Below, in pieces: positions 32,817 through 53,965 of a stretch of DNA of 64,000 nt (within the stretch, counting starts at the first letter, position 1; each line of letters starts with the position of its first letter). Made by a program: the position numbers and the translations under genes. This DNA comes from Comamonadaceae bacterium (GTDB lineage Bacteria > Pseudomonadota > Gammaproteobacteria > Burkholderiales > Burkholderiaceae_C), in assembly GCA_003599455.1 (NCBI GenBank), contig QZKF01000082.1, forward strand, positions 1 through 64,000, in the 5' to 3' direction. Below the pieces are notes generated by a model. The model did not search any database. It was not told the origin of the DNA and saw nothing but the letters and a program-made list of their open reading frames with translations.

Positions 32817-33323
32817 TCAGATCGCGACGGCTTTCTCGATCACGACGTCGTCCTTGGGCACGTCGTCGTGAAAGCCCTTGCGGCCGGTGGGCAGGCCCTC
32901 GATCTTCTTGACGATCTCGGCCCCCGAGACCACCTTGCCGAACACCGCGTAGCCCCAGCCCTGGGCGCTCGGCGCGGTGTGGTTGAGGAAGCCGTTGTTC
33001 GACACGTTGATGAAGAACTGCGCGGTGGCCGAGTGCGGGTCGCTGGTGCGCGCCATGGCCACGGTGTAGGTGTCGTTCTTGAGGCCGTTGTTGGCTTCGT
33101 TGGCGATTGGCTCGCCGGTGGGCTTTTGCGTCATGCCGGGCTCGAAGCCGCCGCCCTGCACCATGAAGCCGGGAATGACGCGGTGGAACACGGTGTTGTT
33201 GTAGTGGCCCTTGTTCACATAGGCCAGGAAGTTGGCGGCGGACAGCGGTGCTTTCTCGGCGTCGAGCTCCAGCGTGATGACGCCGTGACCGGCGATGTGC
33301 AGTTCGACTTTCGGATTGGCCAT
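32817..33323 (-). CDS. ppiB: PpiB, cytoplasmic cyclophilin
   Basis: This 168-residue cyclophilin-type peptidyl-prolyl isomerase has the active-site segments [20 protein letters not shown] (Arg and Phe/Met/Gln), [19 protein letters not shown] and [12 protein letters not shown]. No signal peptide is present. ATG 33323 is preferred because GGAGA lies 7 bases upstream; an ATG two codons earlier is too close to that site. It starts 2 bases after the ppiA stop, forming a tandem pair of one exported and one cytosolic isomerase. Confidence 0.96.
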
Positions 33324-33325
33324 GT

Positions 33326-34027
33326 TCATTTCTCCAGGGTGGCTTTGAGGATGGTGATGGGGGTTTGCGGCACGTCGGTCGGGAACGGGCCGCCGGCACC
33401 GGTGGGGGTTTCCTTGATCTTGTTGACCACGTCCATGCCGCTGACCACCTTGCCGAACACGGTGTAGCCGTAGAGTTCGGCGGCGTTGAGCAGGCTGGCG
33501 CGCGGCACGTCCTTGTAGACCTTGCCGCGGTACTCGAACTGGGGCACCGGGTCTCCGGGCGGGATCGGCGTGGGGTCTAGGAAGGCATTGTCCTTGACGT
33601 TGATGAAGAACTGCGACGAAGCGGAGTGCGGGTCGTTGGTGCGCGCCATCGCCACCGTGCCGACCACGTTGCGCGGGCCACCCAGGGCCAGCGCCGCCTG
33701 GCCTTCGTGGGCCACGGGCGGGCGCGTGGCTTTTTGCTTGTAGCTGCCGTCGAAGCCGCCGCCCTGCACCATGAAGTTGCTGATCACGCGGTGGAACACC
33801 GTGCCGTCGTAGTGCTTGTCGCGCACGTACTGCAGGAAGTTCTCGACCGTCTTCGGGGCCTTGTCGGGGTAGAGCTCGATCACGATGTCGCCCATCGAGG
33901 TGCTGAGCTTCACGCGCGGGGCGCTGCCCTGGGCCCCTGCCGCCAGAGGCAGCAGTGCCGCACTGGCCACGAGGGCCGTGAGCCAGACCACCGCGCGGCG
34001 GCGCAGGGAGGTTGAGGGAGTCGTCAT
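33326..34027 (-). CDS. ppiA: PpiA, periplasmic cyclophilin
   Basis: The 233-residue cyclophilin has a Sec signal peptide ([11 protein letters not shown] then [22 protein letters not shown]). Active-site segments are [20 protein letters not shown] and [20 protein letters not shown] 20-residue insertion rich in Pro/Gly ([20 protein letters not shown]) lies before [13 protein letters not shown]. It catalyses prolyl isomerisation in the periplasm. Its start overlaps the L,D-transpeptidase stop by one base. Confidence 0.95.
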
Positions 34028-35511
34028 CAGAGGGTTCCTTCAAAAAAGATCGTCCAGCGGTCCTGCTCGCGCTTCCAGTACTGGCGCCGGGTCACGCCGC
34101 GGCTCTGGCCGGCGGCGACTTCGCCGAAGGTGACCACCATGGTGTCTTCCTGGTCGCGCCAGCGCAGCACCGACAGGTCCTTGATCCGCAGCTCGCGCGA
34201 GCCGCTGGCGCGCAACTCGCCTTCGACCCGCGGCCACCATTGGGCCAGATCGCGGCCCTGGTTCATGAAGCGGCTGGAATAAAACCCCTTGAGTTCGGCC
34301 AGATTGCCTTCGCTGCGGCTGCGCCGCCACGCATCGAGCACGCTTTCGAACTGCTGGCGCTCGGCGGCCAGCGCGTCGGGTTGCACCCATTGCAGCGAGG
34401 GCGCGATCACCACCGGCGTGGTGCGGATCTGCACCGTGGCCAGCACGCGCTCCAGGTCGGGGTTGGACAGCACCACGCAGCCGTCGGAGGCCTGCGGCGC
34501 GCGCACGAACTGGTCGCTCGGCGTGCCGTGCAGCCAGATGCCGCCGCCGGTCTTGCCGCGCTGCATGTCCAGCGCATTGGGGTAGTTGATGGGCAGGGCG
34601 CCCACGCCGTACAGGTCGGGCAGATCGGCGGGGTTGAGGGTGCTGGTGATGTAGTACACGCCCAGTGGCGTGCGCTTGTCGCCCTCGACGGCTTTCTCGA
34701 TGCCCGAGAGGCCGACTGAAATGTAGAAGTCGCCCAGCAGCTTGAGGCGGGGCGCGCGGTCGGCGTCGCTGCTGGAGCGCGCCGGGTTCAGGTTTTCGAA
34801 CAGGTAGAGCCGCGAACGCGAGGCGTCGACGGCGATGGCGTGGCGGCTGTGCGGCGACAGCGTGAGGAACTGCGTGGGCACGCTGCCCTCGGGCGGGCGC
34901 TCGGTGAGCGCGCGCAGGCGGCGGTGCGATTCTTCGCGCAGTGCCGAGAGCTGCGCGGATGCCGCCATGGCCTTGGTGTCGGGCACGTCGCCGAGCTGGC
35001 GCACCGGGCGCGCCTGCAGGCTGAGCAGGTCGCCGTGCACCAGGTGCGCGAGCTGGAAGTTGGGGTGGTCGCGCACCAGCGCCTCGGCCTGGGCCAGGGC
35101 CTCGCGGTGCCGGGTCTGGCTGATGAGCTGGTAGATCCCGATCAGCCGCGCTTCGGCCTGGCCCATGAGGGGCCTGGCCTGGTTCAGCCGCTCGCTGGTG
35201 AGGCCCACGGCGGCGAGCCCGGAAGGCAACGGACTGACCGTGCTCCGCGCCGTGTCCTGCACACGGGCCATGGCGCTGTCGATCAGGGACGACGACGGCG
35301 CGCCCGCTTCGGACGCGCCCGGCTCGGTGGGCAACAGCGTGTCCGATGCGTTGTGGCGCAGCAGCGCCGCGGCGACGAGCAGCGTGACGGCGACCGCAGC
35401 GACCAGGATCACCCGGCTGCGGGGTGCGCGCCCGCCATCGCCACCCTCCGCCCCCAGAAGCCCGGTCGGGACGCTGGCATGGCCACGTTGCGCGAACCGC
35501 CGGCTGGTCAT
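34027..35511 (-). CDS. L,D-transpeptidase (YkuD) with N-terminal anchor
   Basis: The product has 494 residues. A membrane anchor lies at about 34-50 ([18 protein letters not shown]), followed by a helical stalk and a YkuD catalytic domain (about 220-380). That domain has [12 protein letters not shown] and the nucleophile motif SDGCVVLSN. The C-terminal 110 residues form an NTF2-like domain ([25 protein letters not shown]...WTIFFEGTL). The enzyme should make 3-3 peptidoglycan cross-links or attach proteins to the wall. The start ATG 35511 overlaps the stop of the upstream TPR gene, which carries a similar C-terminal domain. Confidence 0.9.
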
Positions 35512-45159: not shown

Positions 45160-45615
45160 TCAGTCGTCGTCGAGCGACGCGCTCCAGCGGTCGTTCCAGC
45201 CGTCCCGTGGCGGCGCGTCGCGCAGGTTCTCGATGTCGCGGCGGTCGCGCTTGGTGGGGCGTCCCAGCGGCTGGCTGTGCGCCGGCTCGGGGGCCAGGCG
45301 GCGCAGCTCGGCCGCTTCGCTGCGCTGCTTCAACGATGCCGCGGTTTCCTCGTAAAGCAGCGCGGCCACCGGCGCCGGCCCGCGCACGCCGCTGAGACCG
45401 CGCACGACCACGGTGCGTATCTCCTGCGCGATGCGCAGCTCCAGCGTGTCGCCGGTCTTCACGTCGCGCGAGGGCTTGACGGGCAGGCCGTTGAGCCGCA
45501 CATGGCCTTTGTCGATCGCTTCGCTGCTGAGGCCGCGGGTCTTGAAGAAGCGCGCGGCCCATAGCCATTTGTCGAGGCGGACTTTGCCGCTGCCGGCGTC
45601 GGATTCGGTTTTCAT
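45160..45615 (-). CDS. Hsp15-like S4-domain RNA-binding protein
   Basis: The 151-residue protein has an N-terminal S4 domain (VRLDKWLWAARFFKTRGLSSEAIDKGHVRLNGLPVKPSRDVKTGD). A basic, Arg-rich tail follows (GRPTKRDRRDIENLRDA). This is the HslR/Hsp15 type, which in E. coli binds blocked 50S subunits carrying nascent peptidyl-tRNA. The ATG overlaps the sensor-kinase stop (ATGA), so it is the third cistron of a tctD-tctE-hsp15 operon, an unusual partner. Confidence 0.92.
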   Translation of the reverse strand: MKTESDAGSGKVRLDKWLWAARFFKTRGLSSEAIDKGHVRLNGLPVKPSRDVKTGDTLELRIAQEIRTVVVRGLSGVRGPAPVAALLYEETAASLKQRSEAAELRRLAPEPAHSQPLGRPTKRDRRDIENLRDAPPRDGWNDRWSASLDDD

Positions 45616-47075
45616 GCAGGCGTGGAAGATGAAGCCAGTGGCAGGCGGACGGTGGCGTCCAGCCCGCACACCCGGCCCTGGTGGATGCGGTTGTCCAGGT
45701 CGATGCTGCCGCGCAGGGACAACACGATTTCGCGGCAGATCGCCAGGCCCAGGCCGGAGCCCGACACGCCGGGCGCGCGCTGGTGGTCGGTGGCGAAAGG
45801 CTGGAACAGGCGTTCGCGCAGGTCGGGCGAAATGCCGGGCCCTTCGTCGTGGATGGTGAGCGCCGCGGTCTGCCCGTCGGCCACCAGGGCCACGGTCAGC
45901 CGTGAGCCGGGCGGCGTGTTCTTGATCGCGTTGTGCAGCAGGTTGCGGCCGAGTTCGCGCAGCGCCCATTCGTGCGCCTGCACCGGCGCGGCCTGGGTCT
46001 CGAGCGAGAAGTCCAGCGAGCGCTCCGCAATCAGCGCCGAGAGGTCGAGCGCGACCGCACGCACCACGCCCGACCAGTCGAGCGCCGGCGCACTGCCGTC
46101 CTGGCGCAGCTGTTCCACCTTGGCCAGCGCGAGCATCTGGTTGGCCAGCTCGGTAGCGCGCTCCACCGTGTGGCCGATCTCCTCCAGCGCCTGCTGGGGC
46201 GCCACGTCGCCGCGCCGCGCCGACTGCAGCTGCGTCTTGAGCACCGCCAGCGGCGTGCGCAACTGGTGCGAGGTGTCGCGCACAAAGCGCTTCTGGTGTT
46301 CCAGCAGATGCGACAGGCGCTGCATGTGCTGGTTGGTGGCGTCCAGCAGCGGCAGCAGCTCGCGCGGTGCGCCCTCGGTGGACAGGGGCGAGAGGTCGTT
46401 CTCGCTGCGCATGCCCAGCGCGTGGCTGAGCGCGCGCACCGGGCGCGTGGCACGCTGCACCACGAACACCACCACCAGCGCGATCACGATCACCAGGGCG
46501 GCCTGCCGCCACAGCGTGTCGATCAGGATCTGCCGTGCCAGCGTCTGGCGCAGCTCCAGCGTCTCGGCCACCTGGATGGTGGCCATGCCCTGTTCGTACA
46601 CGCCCGAGACCGGCTGCAGCAGCACCGCCATGCGCACCGGCACGCCGCGGTACTCGTCGTCGTAGAAGTTCACCAGCGCGGCGTAGAGGTTCTTCTGCGG
46701 AATGTCGTGGCGCCAGGCGGGCAGGTCGTCGAAACCCGAGACCATCTCGCCCTTGAGGCCGCTCACGCGGTAGAAGATGCGGCTGCGGTTGTCGGCCTCG
46801 AAGGCTTCGAGGGCCGAGTAGAGCAGGGTGGACTCGATGCGCAGGTCGCTGCCCGAGCCCGTGACCCGCAGCTGTTCGCCGAGCGACTTGGCGGTGGCCA
46901 GCAGGGTGCGGTCGTAGGCGGTGTCGGCGGCCGCCAGCGCCTGGCGGTACAGCACCACGGTGTTGATGAGCACGAACGCGAACACCGGCAGCAGGATGCC
47001 CATCAACAGCGTGCGGCGCAGCGAGATCGGTCGCGGTCGCGCGGCTGCCCTTGTCGCCCTGGCCGGGAGGTTCAA
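45612..47075 (-). CDS. tctE: TctE-type sensor histidine kinase
   Basis: The product has about 487 residues. The preferred start is a TTG at 47075 overlapping the tctD stop. It has an N-terminal helix (LRRTLLMGILLPVFAFVLINTVVLY), a periplasmic sensor of about 130 residues, a second helix (AALVIVIALVVVFVVQ) and a HAMP-like linker. The DHp box is RDTSHQLRTPLAVLKTQ with the phosphoacceptor His. The HATPase domain has NLLHNAIKNTPPG, DEGPGI and GSGLGLAI. The SHQLRTP box and the neighbouring tctCBA genes identify it as the sensor of a tricarboxylate-uptake system. Confidence 0.92.
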   Translation of the reverse strand: MNLPARATRAAARPRPISLRRTLLMGILLPVFAFVLINTVVLYRQALAAADTAYDRTLLATAKSLGEQLRVTGSGSDLRIESTLLYSALEAFEADNRSRIFYRVSGLKGEMVSGFDDLPAWRHDIPQKNLYAALVNFYDDEYRGVPVRMAVLLQPVSGVYEQGMATIQVAETLELRQTLARQILIDTLWRQAALVIVIALVVVFVVQRATRPVRALSHALGMRSENDLSPLSTEGAPRELLPLLDATNQHMQRLSHLLEHQKRFVRDTSHQLRTPLAVLKTQLQSARRGDVAPQQALEEIGHTVERATELANQMLALAKVEQLRQDGSAPALDWSGVVRAVALDLSALIAERSLDFSLETQAAPVQAHEWALRELGRNLLHNAIKNTPPGSRLTVALVADGQTAALTIHDEGPGISPDLRERLFQPFATDHQRAPGVSGSGLGLAICREIVLSLRGSIDLDNRIHQGRVCGLDATVRLPLASSSTPA

Positions 47076-47755
47076 GGGGTGGCCTTCAGCAGGTAGCCCA
47101 GGCCGCGCAGCGTGACCAGCTGCGCGCCGGTGTGGGCGATGCGCTTGCGCAGGCGGTAGGCGACCACCTCGATCGCCTCGGGCTGCACCTGGCTCTCGCC
47201 CGGGAACACCAGCTCGAACAGGCGCTCCTTGGCGATGGCGTGTCCCGGCTTGCCCAGCAAGGCCTGCAGCATCGCGAGTTCGCGCGGCGCCAGTTCCAGC
47301 GGCTGGCCGCCGAAGTAGACCGCCCCGCTGTCCCGCTCCACATGCATGCCGCACCACACCGGGCCCCGCGCCGAGCCCGCGGCGTTGTCGCTGCCGGCGG
47401 TGCGCCGCACCAGGGCGCGCAGCCGCGCCTCGAGTTCGTCGAGGTCGAAGGGCTTGGGCATGTAGTCGTCGGCGCCGGTGTTCAGGCCCAGGATGCGGTC
47501 GCCCACGGTGCCGCGCGCGGTCAGGATGATGACCGGCGTGTCCAGGCCGGCCGCGCGCGCCTGGCTCAGCACCTCGAGCCCGTCCAGGCCGGGCAGACTC
47601 AGGTCGAGCAGCACCGCGTCGGGCAGGCTGGCCTGCCACAGCGCCAGCGCGCGCGCGCCGTCGTCGCATCCCAGCACCTGCATGCCGCGCCGCTCGAAGC
47701 TGCGCCGCAAGGTGGTCTGCATCGTGGCGTTGTCTTCGATCAGCAGCAGCTTCAT
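47072..47755 (-). CDS. tctD: TctD-type response regulator (OmpR family)
   Basis: The 227-residue regulator has a receiver domain with acidic pair Glu7/Asp8, phosphoacceptor Asp51 (LLDLSLPGLDG) and Lys in MPKPFDLDELEARL. The winged-helix DNA-binding domain covers about 125-225 (LELAPRELAMLQALLG, VVAYRLRKRI, VTLRGLGYLL). It is divergent from the porin and tctCBA genes. Two copies of an 11-bp-period direct repeat, the geometry bound by OmpR/PhoB-type dimers, lie in front of those genes, one of them also 80 bases from its own start, so autoregulation is possible. Confidence 0.93.
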   Translation of the reverse strand: MKLLLIEDNATMQTTLRRSFERRGMQVLGCDDGARALALWQASLPDAVLLDLSLPGLDGLEVLSQARAAGLDTPVIILTARGTVGDRILGLNTGADDYMPKPFDLDELEARLRALVRRTAGSDNAAGSARGPVWCGMHVERDSGAVYFGGQPLELAPRELAMLQALLGKPGHAIAKERLFELVFPGESQVQPEAIEVVAYRLRKRIAHTGAQLVTLRGLGYLLKATP

Positions 47756-47809: not shown

Positions 47810-47850
47810 CCTAGGGTTTGTACGGACACGTTCGACAGCGAACTGACAGC
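47810..47850 (+). promoter_or_regulatory. Putative TctD operator upstream of porin
   Basis: CCTAGGGTTT (47810-47819), 14 unconserved bases, then GACAGCGAACTGACAGC (47834-47850). The second block is two GACAGC hexamers 11 bp apart centre to centre. The same blocks with the same 14-base spacing recur at 48941-48981. It lies between the divergent tctD and porin genes. Confidence 0.6.
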
Positions 47851-47883
47851 CCGCGAACCGAGCATGGCCACTCCCATCCACTT

Positions 47884-48912
47884 CTGAAAGTCATCACGAA
47901 AAGAAATGCAATCGCCCTGGCGGCACTGGGTTTGTTCAGCGGCCTGGCGGCGGCCCAGTCGACCGTCAACCTGTACGGTGTGGTGGACGTGGCGCTGGAG
48001 CGCGTCAAGGGCGCGACCTCGCTCGCCCGCGTGACCTCGGGCCAGCAGCAGGGCTCGCGCTGGGGCCTGCGCGGCACCGAGGACCTGGGCGGCGGGCTCA
48101 AGGCGGTGTTCCTGCTCGAGTCAGGTTTCAACGCCGACGTGGGCACCCTGGGACAGGGCGGTCGCCTGTTCGGGCGCCAGGGCTACGTGGGCCTGGGCGG
48201 TGGCTGGGGTGCCGTGCGCCTGGGCCGCCAGTACACGCCGATGGACGACATCGCCAGCATCGCCGGCACCAAGGTCTACGACGTGATGAGCGTCGTGCCC
48301 ATCATCGGCAACGGCGACTACAACCGCGTGGACAACGCCATCACCTACGTGTCGCCGACCGTCGCCAACACCGTCTTCCAGCTGCAGTACAGCCTGGGCG
48401 AGGAGCGCGTCAGCACCGACCTGAGCAAGGACTTCGGCAAGCAGGTGAGCGCGCACGCCCTCTACGCGCAGGGACCGTGGACCGCGGGCCTGTCGCTGAT
48501 GCAGGTGACCGACGCCAACGGCACCCTGGCTGGAAAACAGGGCAAGGATGCGCTGCTGTTCGTGGCTGCGTACGACTTCGGCTCGGTGAAACTCACCGGC
48601 TACTACGACGTGGAAGACAAGGCGGTCGAAAAGCTCAAGCTGTTCGGTCTGGCGGCGGCCTTCAAGTTCGGCGAGACCACCGTCTCGGTGGGCGCGGCGC
48701 AGGCGAAGAACGTGAACGGATCGGCCGCTGCCCTCAGCGACGACGCGAAGATCTACACGCTGCAGGCCAGCCACAACCTGTCCAAGCGCACGGCACTCTA
48801 CGGCCACCTCACCGCGGTCTCCAACGACGCGGCGGCCGCGCTCGGCTTCAACGCGCCGGTGGCAGGATCGAGCTCCAACGGCATCCAGGTCGGCATTCGC
48901 CACCGCTTCTGA
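47884..48912 (+). CDS. General bacterial porin (start codon unresolved)
   Basis: This outer-membrane trimeric porin of the Gram-negative (betaproteobacterial) type has signal peptide KVITKRNAIALAALGLFSGLAAAQ, then STVNLYGVVDVALERV, GSRWGLRGTEDLGGGLKAVFLLESGF, GRLFGRQGYVGLGG, and the C-terminal GIQVGIRHRF ending in Phe as needed for outer-membrane insertion. There is no ATG or GTG in the expected place: the position where ATG-AAA would fit reads CTG-AAA (47884). The only standard upstream alternative, TTG 47818, would sit inside the putative operator. A 7-codon ATG reading frame (47864-47887) ends just there in another frame. Its likely role is to admit the carboxylates taken up by TctCBA. Confidence 0.85.
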   Translation: MKVITKRNAIALAALGLFSGLAAAQSTVNLYGVVDVALERVKGATSLARVTSGQQQGSRWGLRGTEDLGGGLKAVFLLESGFNADVGTLGQGGRLFGRQGYVGLGGGWGAVRLGRQYTPMDDIASIAGTKVYDVMSVVPIIGNGDYNRVDNAITYVSPTVANTVFQLQYSLGEERVSTDLSKDFGKQVSAHALYAQGPWTAGLSLMQVTDANGTLAGKQGKDALLFVAAYDFGSVKLTGYYDVEDKAVEKLKLFGLAAAFKFGETTVSVGAAQAKNVNGSAAALSDDAKIYTLQASHNLSKRTALYGHLTAVSNDAAAALGFNAPVAGSSSNGIQVGIRHRF

Positions 48913-48940
48913 GCGCGCGCGGCGCAGGGGGGACCCTGAT

Positions 48941-48981
48941 CCTAGGGTTTCTCCCGATGAGAAGGACAGCGAACTGACAGC
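48941..48981 (+). promoter_or_regulatory. Putative TctD operator upstream of tctC
   Basis: This is the second copy of the arrangement: CCTAGGGTTT (48941-48950), 14 bases, GACAGCGAACTGACAGC (48965-48981). CTGACA within the second repeat (48974-48979) resembles a -35 hexamer, but no good -10 follows, as expected for an activator-dependent promoter. It is 53 bases ahead of the tctC ATG. Confidence 0.6.
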
Positions 48982-49033
48982 GTGCCGGCAGAAGATAGGG
49001 ACATCAGTTCACCCGACCCTCAGGAGACACACC

Positions 49034-49993
49034 ATGCGCCGCGACACCTTCCTCAAATCCCTGGCCGCCCTGGCCGCCGCCGGCGCCCTGCCCAACGCGG
49101 CATGGGCCAATGCCAACATCAAGATGATGATCCCCGCCAACCCCGGCGGTGGCTGGGACGGCACCGGCCGTGCGCTCGGCGAAGCCCTGCGCGACGCGGG
49201 CGTGGCCTCGTCGGTCACGTTCGAGAACAAGGGCGGTGCCGCCGGCGCCATCGGCCTGGCCCAGTTCTACAACGCCAGCAAGGGCGACCCGAATGCCCTG
49301 ATGGTCATGGGCGCCGTCATGCTCGGCGGCATCATCACCGGCAAGCCGCCGGTCTCCATCACCCAGCTCACACCGATCGCGCGCCTGACCACCGAATACA
49401 ACGTGTTCGTGCTGCCGGCCGATTCGCCGTACAAGACCATGAAGGACGTGGTCGAGCAGCTCAAGAAGGACCCGGGCAGCATCAAGTGGGGCGGCGGTTC
49501 GCGCGGCGCCACCGAGCACATCGCCGCGGCGCAGATCGCGCAGTCGGTGGGCGTGCCGGCCTCGAAGATCAACTACGTGCCCTTCCGGGGCGGCGGCGAG
49601 GCCACGGCGGCCATCCTGGGTGGCAACGTCACCGTGGGCGGCAGCGGCTACAGCGAGTTCCAGCAGTACATCGACAGCGGCAAGATGCGCGCCATCGCGG
49701 TCACCTCGGCGCAGCGCGTCAAGGGCATCAACGTGCCCACGCTGAAAGAGCAGGGCATCGACGTGGAGATCGGCAACTGGCGCGGCGTCTACGGCGCGCC
49801 CGGCATCACGCAGGCCCAGCGCGATGCGTTGACCGCCATGGTCGTCAAGGCCACGCAGAGCAAGGCCTGGGCGGCGGCGATGGAGAAGAACAACTGGACG
49901 CCGGCGCTGCTCACCGGCAAGGCCTTCGACGAGTTCGTGGACAAGGATTTTTCGTCGCTGCGCGCGACCATGGTCCGGGCCGGCATGGTCTGA
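49034..49993 (+). CDS. tctC: TctC, tripartite tricarboxylate transporter solute-binding protein (Bug family)
   Basis: This is a 319-residue periplasmic receptor. Signal peptide MRRDTFLKSLAALAAAGALPNAAWA. The Bug-family landmarks are NPGGGWDGTGRALGEAL and FENKGGAAGAIGLAQF, the segments that clamp carboxylates. It delivers citrate or another carboxylate to TctAB. AGGAG precedes the ATG. It is the first gene of tctCBA and is followed by an intercistronic hairpin that may raise its expression over tctBA. Confidence 0.94.
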   Translation: MRRDTFLKSLAALAAAGALPNAAWANANIKMMIPANPGGGWDGTGRALGEALRDAGVASSVTFENKGGAAGAIGLAQFYNASKGDPNALMVMGAVMLGGIITGKPPVSITQLTPIARLTTEYNVFVLPADSPYKTMKDVVEQLKKDPGSIKWGGGSRGATEHIAAAQIAQSVGVPASKINYVPFRGGGEATAAILGGNVTVGGSGYSEFQQYIDSGKMRAIAVTSAQRVKGINVPTLKEQGIDVEIGNWRGVYGAPGITQAQRDALTAMVVKATQSKAWAAAMEKNNWTPALLTGKAFDEFVDKDFSSLRATMVRAGMV

Positions 49994-50089: not shown

Positions 50090-50617
50090 ATGAACGCCCC
50101 CGGTGCTTCCTCCCCCAACCACCACCGCCCCGGCCAGCTGGCCATGGGCATCGGCGCCCTGATCGTGGCCGCCGTGCTCGCCTGGGGTGCAGCGGCCATC
50201 CCGTCCGACGCGGGCTATGCCGGCGTGGGCCCCGACTTCCTGCCCTGGGTGGTGAGCGCGGCGCTCGCGGCCTGCGGCGTGATGCTGATCCGCGAGGTGC
50301 TCACCGGTGGCTACCGCCAGATGGAAGAGCCCTCGGGCGCGGCGCGCGGCGACTGGCGTGCGCTGGCCTGGGTCTCGGCCGGCGTGCTGCTCAACGCCGC
50401 GCTGATCACCACCATCGGCTTCATCCTGAGCTGCTCGCTGTGTTTCGCGCTGGCGGTGCGCGGCCTGCGCGCGAGCGAAGGCAAGCCCATCGGCGACCTG
50501 CGCCAGACGGTCAAGGACGCGGTCACCGGCATCGTCATCTCGGCGCCGGTGTACTGGCTGTTCACCAAGCTGCTCGCGGTGAACCTGCCGGGCGTCACCG
50601 CCAGCGGCTGGATCTGA
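50090..50617 (+). CDS. tctB: TctB, small membrane subunit of tricarboxylate transporter
   Basis: The 175-residue protein has four predicted helices (about residues 15-35 [20 protein letters not shown], 45-65, 90-110, 140-160), as usual for TctB. It pairs with TctA in the inner membrane. Sequence conservation in this family is low; identity rests on topology and its place between tctC and tctA. Confidence 0.9.
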
Positions 50618-50636: not shown

Positions 50637-52130
50637 ATGATGGACACCCTCAACCAGCTGCTCGGCGGCTTCGCCACCGCCGGCACCCCCATCAACCTGC
50701 TCTGGGCCTTTGCGGGCTGCGCGCTGGGCACCGCCATCGGCGTGCTGCCCGGCCTGGGCCCGGCCGTGACCGTGGCCATGCTGCTGCCCATCACCGGCCA
50801 GGTCGAACCCACCGCGTCGATGATCTTCTTCGCGGGCATCTACTACGGCGCCATGTACGGCGGCTCGACCACCTCGATCCTGCTCAACACGCCGGGCGAG
50901 ACCGGCACCATGGTGACCGCGCTCGAAGGCTTCAAGATGGCCAAGAGCGGGCGCGCCGGCGCGGCCCTGGCCAGCGCGGCCATCGGCTCCTTCGTGGCAG
51001 GCACCATCGCCACCATCCTGGTCACGCTGTTCGCGCCCGTGCTGGCCGAGTTCGCCGTGAAGCTCGGACCGCCGGAGTATTTCTGCCTGATGCTGCTGGC
51101 CTTCACCACCGTGAGCGCGGTGCTCGGCCAGAGCACCTTGCGCGGCCTCACCGCGCTGTTCTTCGGCCTCGCGCTCGGCCTGATCGGCATCGACCAGATC
51201 ACCGCCCAGGTGCGCTACACCGCGGGTGTGCTCGAGTTCATGGACGGTATCGAGGTGGTGCTGGTGGCGGTGGGCCTGTTCGCCGTGGCCGAGGCGCTCT
51301 ACAACGCGCTCTACGAAGGCCGCAGCGAGGCCAGCATGAACAAGATGAACAAGGCGCACATGACGCGCAGCGAGTGGCGCCGCTCCTGGCCGGCCTGGCT
51401 GCGCGGCACCGCCATCGGTTTCCCCTTCGGCACCATCCCGGCCGGCGGCACCGAGATCCCCACCTTCCTGAGCTACGCCACCGAGCGCAAGCTCGCCAGC
51501 CCGGAGCACAAGGCCGAGTTCGGCACCACCGGCGCCATCGAAGGCGTGGCTGGCCCGGAGGCCGCCAACAACGCGGCGGTCACCGGCACGCTGGTGCCGC
51601 TGCTCACGCTGGGCATTCCGACCTCGGTGACCGCGGCCATCCTGCTGAGCGCGCTGCAGAACTACGGCATCAACGCCGGCCCGCAGCTGTTCCAGACCTC
51701 GTCGGCGCTGGTCTGGGCGCTGATCGCCTCGCTCTACATCGGCAACGTGATGCTGCTGGTGCTCAACCTGCCGCTGGTGGGTCTGTGGGTCAAGCTGCTG
51801 AAGATCCCGCGCCCGCAGCTCTATGCCGGCATCCTGATCTTCGCCACCGTGGGCGTCTACGGCATGCGCCAGAGCGCGTTCGACCTGTTCCTCATGTACG
51901 GCCTGGGCCTGCTCGGTGTGGTGATGCGCCGCTACGACTTCCCCACCGCGCCGGTGATCGTGGGCCTGATCCTGGGCCCCATGGCCGAGGCGCAGATGCG
52001 CAACGCGCTCTCCATCGGCGAGGGCAGCTGGATGGTGTTCCTGCAGCGCCCGATGTCGGCCACCTTGCTGGCCGTGGTGGTGATCGTGCTGGTGCTGCCG
52101 CGTTTGCTGGCGCGGCGGGTGGCCGCTTAG
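50637..52130 (+). CDS. tctA: TctA, large membrane subunit of tricarboxylate transporter
   Basis: This 497-residue polytopic protein has about 11-12 helices. It has the TctA motifs [25 protein letters not shown] near the N-terminus and [24 protein letters not shown] in the middle, the two related PGxGP/PAGG re-entrant segments. It moves the substrate using an ion gradient. It is the last gene of the unit, starting 19 bases after tctB. Confidence 0.95.
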
Positions 52131-52149: not shown

Positions 52150-52374
52150 CTCGCGGACGCCGGGCGCTCTGCTCCGCGGGTGTCCCCCGGCGGCTGGAGG
52201 CCGCCTCCTCCTTTACGCCGCTGCGCAGAACGCACCGCGTCCGCGAGCAGAGATGATGCGTGCGTGCCCCCCGGACCGAGTGCCAAGGAGGTCATCGGCG
52301 GCCATGGGGCATGGCGCAGCGGCGTAAAGGAGGAGGGCCGGGCGAAGCATGGCCCGGGGGACAGCCGCGGAGCC
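52150..52374. repeat. Nested long inverted repeat between tctA and the sigma54 activator
   Basis: The 344-base gap 52131-52474 holds nested inverted repeats. A perfect 23-bp pair lies at 52204-52226 and 52314-52336 (core TTTACGCCGCTGCGC). An outer pair matches 19/20 at 52171-52190 and 52354-52373 (GCTCCGCGGgTGTCCCCCGG). A further 11-bp pair, CTCGCGGACGC / GCGTCCGCGAG, lies at 52150-52160 and 52237-52247. It can fold as a large hairpin and probably stops or stabilises the tctCBA transcript. Similar wording near 55395 suggests a dispersed intergenic repeat family. No coding frame is called here. Confidence 0.75.
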
Positions 52375-52474
52375 GTGTCCCGTGGTCGCCGATGACCGGC
52401 ACAGCCGAAAGAGCGCAAACGCTTGTGAACCGGCGATCGAAGGGGCCGATACCCACCGGGGGTACCATTCGGCC

Positions 52475-53940
<1,466 letters not shown>

Positions 53941-53965
<25 letters not shown>

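Follow-up and report, generated by a model that had tools for sequence, protein, structure and literature searches.

The window, that is, the whole 64,000-nucleotide stretch analysed here, comes from a Comamonadaceae bacterium and holds a TTT transporter locus at 45.6-52.1 kb, with tctED on the minus strand and a porin gene followed by tctCBA diverging from them. tctE (45612..47084, start approximate) encodes a sensor histidine kinase with 2CSK_N, HisKA and HATPase_c domains (Pfam 2CSK_N, 1.4e-40) and adjoins tctD in relatives. tctD (47072..47755) encodes an OmpR/PhoB-type response regulator of 227 amino acids (Response_reg, 1.3e-26; Trans_reg_C, 6.3e-13). On the plus strand, the porin gene (Porin_4, 3.9e-54) is listed at 47818..48912 with a TTG start. 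The transporter genes follow in the order tctC, tctB, tctA, as identified by Pfam, and encode a periplasmic tricarboxylate-type binding protein (49034..49993; TctC, 2.7e-29), a small membrane subunit (50090..50617; TctB, 9.7e-22) and a large membrane subunit (50637..52130; TctA, 9.6e-152). The closest solved chain to TctC is an uncharacterized protein, and TctC-like proteins are described in an excerpt of PMC8102459 as taking several carboxylates. Downstream of tctA, at 52349-53965, lies a gene for a regulator of PAS, sigma-54-activator and Fis type, with homologues in many relatives.

A bipartite motif stands in front of both the porin gene and tctC. Its two plus-strand copies, at 47810-47850 and 48941-48981, read CCTAGGGTTT-N14-GACAGC-N5-GACAGC. 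Each copy begins with an upstream element (CCTAGGGTTTGTACGGAC, 47810..47827, with a canonical left half and a degenerate right half; CCTAGGGTTTCTCCCGAT, 48941..48958). The direct repeat follows (47834..47850 and 48965..48981) and is the proposed TctD dimer site in the promoters of the porin gene and of tctCBA. A -10-like hexamer, recognized from conserved columns, lies 9 bp past each repeat (GAGCAT, 47860..47865; GAAGAT, 48991..48996). The copies are identical at all 27 letters of the two blocks, with the N5 spacer (GACAGCGAACTGACAGC) included. They match at 5 of the 14 bases of the N14 spacer, at 16/60 positions upstream and at 11/40 downstream. The sequence-only reading, which had reported the motif twice with exact spacing in otherwise unrelated sequence and tctD divergent to the first copy, is borne out at these coordinates, the tctD reading frame occupying 47072..47755 on the minus strand and the site starting at 47810.

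A chance origin of the two copies is ruled out by shuffles, a genome scan and a reversed control. In 20 rounds of mononucleotide shuffling, the window never gave a 27-letter matching pair. Genome G000 (4,291,375 bases in 106 contigs, 95% complete) has two motif matches at up to three mismatches, both in the window, compared with none for the reversed pattern, and a sequence model of 57 columns, derived from 29 sites, returned the same two genome sites only (E<=10). Random scatter through the genome, which would speak against an operator, was therefore not what the search found. Parts of the motif behave differently. The half-motif alone, at up to two mismatches, was found 15 times in the window versus 13.97 expected, and the direct repeat alone, at one mismatch, gave nine matches in the genome versus five for the control; these counts are near chance, so only the full unit is informative. 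The five further 27-letter pairs in the real window all stem from a single tandem gene repeat near 33 kb. Two neighbouring genes there (~32817-34043), which we take to be peptidyl-prolyl isomerase-like, carry a stretch repeated near 33140 and 33748.

Architecture of the conserved unit

The conserved unit is longer than first described and extends downstream to the -10-like box. In the alignment of 29 sites it consists of a CCTAGNGTTTNCCCTAGG-like upstream element, 6 bp, GACAGC-N4-TGACAGC, 9 bp and the -10-like hexamer. Three of the 31 loci (L006, L010 and L025) were dropped from the alignment as chance-like and free of tct homologues, and L009 was retained despite its unrelated context and later classed as "other". 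Two head-to-tail half-sites about 11 bp apart, as in the operators of OmpR/PhoB-type regulators, are present and are exact in both window copies, and the linked tctD product has the receiver and winged-helix domains of such a regulator. The second half-site reads GACAG in 104 of 104 distinct sites from a scan that required GACAG in the first; two further sites have TACAG as the first half-site (L068 and L083). The A, A and T of the -10-like hexamer (columns 52, 55 and 56) are found in 103, 104 and 103 of the 104 distinct sites. The direct repeat would overlie the -35 region of the putative promoter, and the conserved A, A and T of the -10-like hexamer 9 bp downstream fit such a placement. TTGACA at columns 34-39 was rejected as an ordinary -35 because the conserved -10-like box is just 11 bp downstream.

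The upstream element is an 18-bp quasi-palindrome of which CCTAGGGTTT is the left part, and it is clearer in relatives. Its core in the 104 distinct sites is G5, G7, TTT at 8-10, Y12, C13 and C14, and a perfect CCTAGGG-N4-CCCTAGG is found in L069 and L120. The element keeps its phase to the repeat: in 88 of the 120 distinct direct-repeat sites in the fetched loci, 10-12 bp separate the end of TTNYCC from GACAG, and in one the distance is 20 bp. The pattern was not found in the other 31, and many of the 25 of these that were displayed keep a variant. A strict palindrome was considered and received no support from pairwise covariation; the symmetry is in the consensus alone.

Distribution in the family and association with TctD

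The site is widespread in the family and accompanies TctD. A pattern scan gave 50 matches in 45 of 299 family genomes, compared with 2 for the reversed control. At thresholds of E<=1e-3 for the site model and E<=1e-60 for the TctD protein, the site is present in 123 of the 299 genomes and a TctD match in 136. Both are found in 119 genomes, the site only in 4, TctD only in 17 and neither in 159 (Fisher p ~1e-58, with relatedness of the genomes uncorrected). The family counts depend in part on the model, all 29 of whose sites come from 27 of the genomes rescanned; with these 27 left out, a hand count gives 93, 3, 17 and 159. Seventeen of the 136 TctD-positive genomes thus have no site detected at E<=1e-3. 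In all, 70 of the 141 sampled genera have the site.

Most sites lie next to tctD. Of 142 sites, 114 are 3-227 bp from the start of tctD, and all 114 point away from it. Among the other 28, 24 are in genomes with a TctD match. A 25th, in G210, was scored as site-only and has a 64%-identical TctD beside it, so the protein scan missed some TctD proteins; in G017 a site precedes tctC and no TctD match was found at E<=1e-60. Twenty of the 28 precede a TctC-family gene (moved orthologues, or paralogues of 25-47% identity), two run off the contig (C25 of G208 and C12 of G227), and six have neither a TctC-family gene nor a porin gene downstream (G186, with a site of E 1.6e-8, and G215, G269, G132, G168 and G237). 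The two G208 contigs that end with a site copy, C17 (end of L032) and C25 (start of L035), both stop about 40 bp past it, and the gene upstream of one of these copies presumably encodes a histone-deacetylase-type hydrolase.

The gene context of the sites is similarly narrow. The fetched loci contain 113 distinct sites, 94 of them in front of a TctC-family gene, 13 in front of a porin gene, 2 in front of neither and 4 cut off downstream; the resulting 107 of 109 classed sites should be read with the fact that many loci were fetched via tctD or porin queries. Neither kind of gene follows the site in L009 or in L054, and in the genome of L054 the porin gene lies 1.3 kb further on (L083). Apart from the six non-adjacent sites named above, the sites are limited to carboxylate-uptake genes in genomes with TctD (119/123 genomes and 107/109 sites). 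Where about 2 kb intervenes between tctD and tctC (L033, L100, L108 and L109), the site is still found beside tctC. In L033 (5242-7329) this interval holds a gene of about 700 amino acids, presumably of DUF1631 type, and the gap is of similar size in the other three. A scan of the order gave weak matches in eight genomes of other families (L130-L137; E 3.4e-4 to 0.0084). No Tct or porin homologue is present at any of them, and they were treated as chance.

The porin gene

Within the genus, a porin gene at the locus goes together with a second site. The sample of 60 genus genomes has TctD in 47, and 40 tctD regions were fetched besides that of the window. All 8 regions with a porin gene between tctD and tctC have two sites each, and L115, with its porin gene after tctA, has two as well. 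The remaining regions have one site (26 regions) or none at the threshold used (5), and two of these five, L118 and L119, show a variant repeat by eye. Relatives of the porin (E<=1e-70) were found in 14 genomes, in 9 of them in the slot between tctD and tctC. Four of the five outside the slot have a site upstream (L155, L157, L158 and L159), and L160, whose porin is 56% identical, has none upstream. Genome G156, from another genus, carries a 31%-identical porin gene between a single site and tctC (L257, 1101-3192), with tctC 25 bp behind it in an apparent operon; its congener G030 (L258) has no porin gene at that place. Porins have probably come under the control of such sites more than once. 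Omp32 is an anion-selective porin, a property that would suit carboxylates. It is the nearest solved relative of the window porin (1e54, E 2.5e-28).

The listed TTG start of the porin gene (47818) falls inside the operator, and the true start is probably near 47884-47898, to judge from the reading frame and relatives. The ATG start of relatives (L085 and L089) reads ACG in the window (47896-47898). ACG is also found in L082, and in L084 the A-run after the start is one A shorter. No in-frame ATG, GTG or TTG occurs between 47851 and the TTG at 47932, which is inside the signal peptide; other table 11 initiation codons in frame are CTG at 47884 and ATC at 47893. The ACG may reflect loss of the start, a non-canonical start or an assembly error, and the window porin may be poorly translated.

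Distant TctD loci

A related repeat is found beside TctD-like regulators that are only distantly related to that of the window. Nineteen such regulators with 42-52% identity were compared, 17 from the order and 2 from the class; three of the 19 (L254-L256) are paralogues within genomes of the window's own family. TctD scans of the class and of the family of G837 yielded only two distant loci that could be used and added no further genome from the G837 family. GAMAG-N6-GAMAG, which includes a GAAAG variant defined after it had been seen in one locus (L234), occurs in 11 of the 19 divergent regions, always on the expected strand and never on the reverse one. The shuffle expectation is 0.021 for 18 of the 19 divergent regions. 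The other eight loci, including L244 and L235, lack the repeat. Visual inspection showed TANNAT or TACATT 10-11 nt past GAMAG in nine of the eleven loci that have the repeat (all but L245 and L256), and no upstream GGG-N4-CCC element is apparent by eye in these distant loci. Beside the TctD-like gene of L254 (G088) there is a triple 11-bp repeat, TGAAAGC, TGAAGGA and TGAAAGG, in a stretch in which no tctC was found.

Since many distant TctD genes have a related repeat at the equivalent place and the upstream element is not apparent there, the GACAGC direct repeat is likely the TctD site. The proposal that the whole bipartite motif is the TctD operator is thereby narrowed to the repeat: CCTAGGGTTT is, on comparison of the aligned loci, one half of a family-specific GGG-N4-CCC element separate from it.

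Two residues of TctD vary with the half-site. All 28 rows with GACAG (from 27 distinct genes) have V at position 198 and Y at position 200, and five of the six rows with GAAAG have Y and H there. These positions are two of eight columns that separate the two sets of rows, and the regulator of L244 has V and Y and no repeat. Both positions presumably sit in the DNA-reading helix of PhoB-type regulators. The correlation of residues 198 and 200 with GACAG or GAAAG is suggestive only, as it goes back to few independent changes.

Discussion

Both sites appear to serve as operator-promoters in a single small regulon under the divergent TctE-TctD two-component system, a reading to which we give a probability of about 85%. 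One citrate-type sensor system probably switches on both the porin and the matching carboxylate importer. TctE would sense a carboxylate (citrate or another TctC ligand) and phosphorylate TctD, and a TctD~P dimer would bind GACAGC-N5-GACAGC head-to-tail. The bound repeat would take the place of a -35, with a weak -10 (GANNAT) following after 9 bp, and TctD~P would recruit sigma-70 RNA polymerase in the manner of PhoB. With such a promoter in front of both the porin gene and tctCBA, outer-membrane entry and inner-membrane uptake would be switched on together. Set at a constant distance of 6 bp ahead of the repeat, the GGG-N4-CCC element would be a second, family-specific component that binds either another TctD dimer or a different factor. 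The regulon tying the porin to TctCBA, predicted earlier from the motif, gains support from co-occurrence in the family, the fixed orientation of the sites and the retention of the site with relocated porins.

Other explanations differ in what they assign to the repeat. It is highly improbable that the copies arose by recent duplication or as a mobile repeat and have no regulatory role: they are near-identical and 1.1 kb apart, but their N14 spacers and flanks are unrelated, the genome has no further copies, and the site is found in half of the sampled genera (70/141) with fixed orientation and gene context. Binding by a regulator other than TctD is quite unlikely. The Fis-type sigma-54 activator encoded after tctA (52349-53965) is conserved in many members of the genus and would be a candidate, as would another response regulator. 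However, 114 of the 142 sites adjoin and diverge from tctD, the repeat is kept in distant TctD loci, and 14 of 35 site-bearing genus regions have no activator homologue in the stretch (4 of the 14 are shorter than 5.3 kb). Sigma-54 promoters have a -24/-12 consensus, whereas the conserved promoter here has a -10-like box.

Control by two regulators is a possibility of some weight, although we consider it somewhat less than even. TctD~P would bind the repeat and a second, symmetric dimeric factor the GGG-N4-CCC quasi-palindrome, giving two-signal control, for example by inducer and carbon status. This refines the main reading, and the odds of the two overlap. In its favour, the upstream element has dyad character, in contrast to the head-to-tail repeat: the dyad is perfect in L120 and L069, and L118 and L217 retain GGG-N4-CCC around a changed centre. 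Distant loci in which the repeat occurs and no upstream element is apparent by eye fit as well. Against a separate factor, the repeat immediately follows 39 of the 42 distinct AGGGTTTNYCC matches in 1.14 Mb of loci, which were for the most part fetched around such sites, the columns show no covariation beyond base composition, and no candidate for the second factor emerged. With the looser AGGGN4CCCT, 23 of 34 matches in the same 1.14 Mb have no repeat downstream, some of them being the other strand of the same element. A joint two-input history is more tentative still and on balance unlikely. An ancestral TctD repeat, common to distant lineages, would have acquired the upstream GGG-N4-CCC dyad for a second factor or for a second, head-to-head TctD dimer, and the cassette would then have been copied in front of a captured porin gene, placing pore and importer under the same pair of signals, with residues 198 and 200 setting GACAG or GAAAG.

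The main reading, a TctE-TctD regulon of porin and tctCBA, has a close counterpart in Pseudomonas. OpdH is a porin of the OprD family. In P. aeruginosa, TctD activates the porin gene opdH together with tctCBA, with one TctD motif before opdH-tctCBA; citrate induces opdH, and strains mutated in tctD fail on this substrate (excerpts of PMC4513871). The likeness to the window in these excerpts is in the make-up of the regulon. There the porin gene is in one operon with tctCBA, whereas in the window a Porin_4/Omp32-like porin gene and tctCBA have a site each. The tie between a porin and TctCBA under TctD is therefore already established in Pseudomonas and is not new in principle. Two-component control of the citrate TTT operon is also described for Salmonella, where tctD is opposite to tctCBA, and for Bordetella, where bctCBA expression was not detected without BctDE; the likeness is confined to this control, and the passages at hand describe no porin or operator sequence (PMC5812351). 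According to the same source, Bordetella bctDE run in the same direction as bctCBA, unlike the divergent tctED of the window.

The arrangement of the site resembles that of the Pho box. The Pho box lies in a similar position relative to the -10 as the repeat here does relative to the -10-like hexamer. The position of the direct repeat 9 bp before the -10-like box suggests that TctD probably acts like PhoB, which binds two 11-nt direct repeat units head-to-tail and contacts sigma-70 (as excerpted from PMC4415409). Together with the activation of opdH-tctCBA in P. aeruginosa, this Pho-box-like arrangement leads us to expect activation of both promoters by TctD~P. The Pho box half-site CTGTCA and the TGACAG of the window are read on opposite strands, so the PhoB geometry serves only as an analogy, and the window site, unlike the Pho box, has an extra, palindrome-like element upstream. 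The half-sites of PmrA/BasR and of PhoP presumably differ from the TctD-type repeat. By sequence, PmrA/BasR (4s04, 8jo2) and M. tuberculosis PhoP (3r0j, 5ed4) are the nearest full-length solved relatives of TctD.

Among the literature matches listed, no title or opening of an abstract describes a TctD site in Comamonadaceae, and the operator is not given in the excerpts of PMC4513871, PMC8041468, PMC8102459, PMC4415409 and PMC5812351. The proposed site would provide a sequence-defined, testable operator for a widespread family of regulators, and it predicts which porin is paired with which tripartite carboxylate importer. A porin gene has its own TctD-type site at several loci, and elsewhere a different porin gene has joined the operon behind an existing site.
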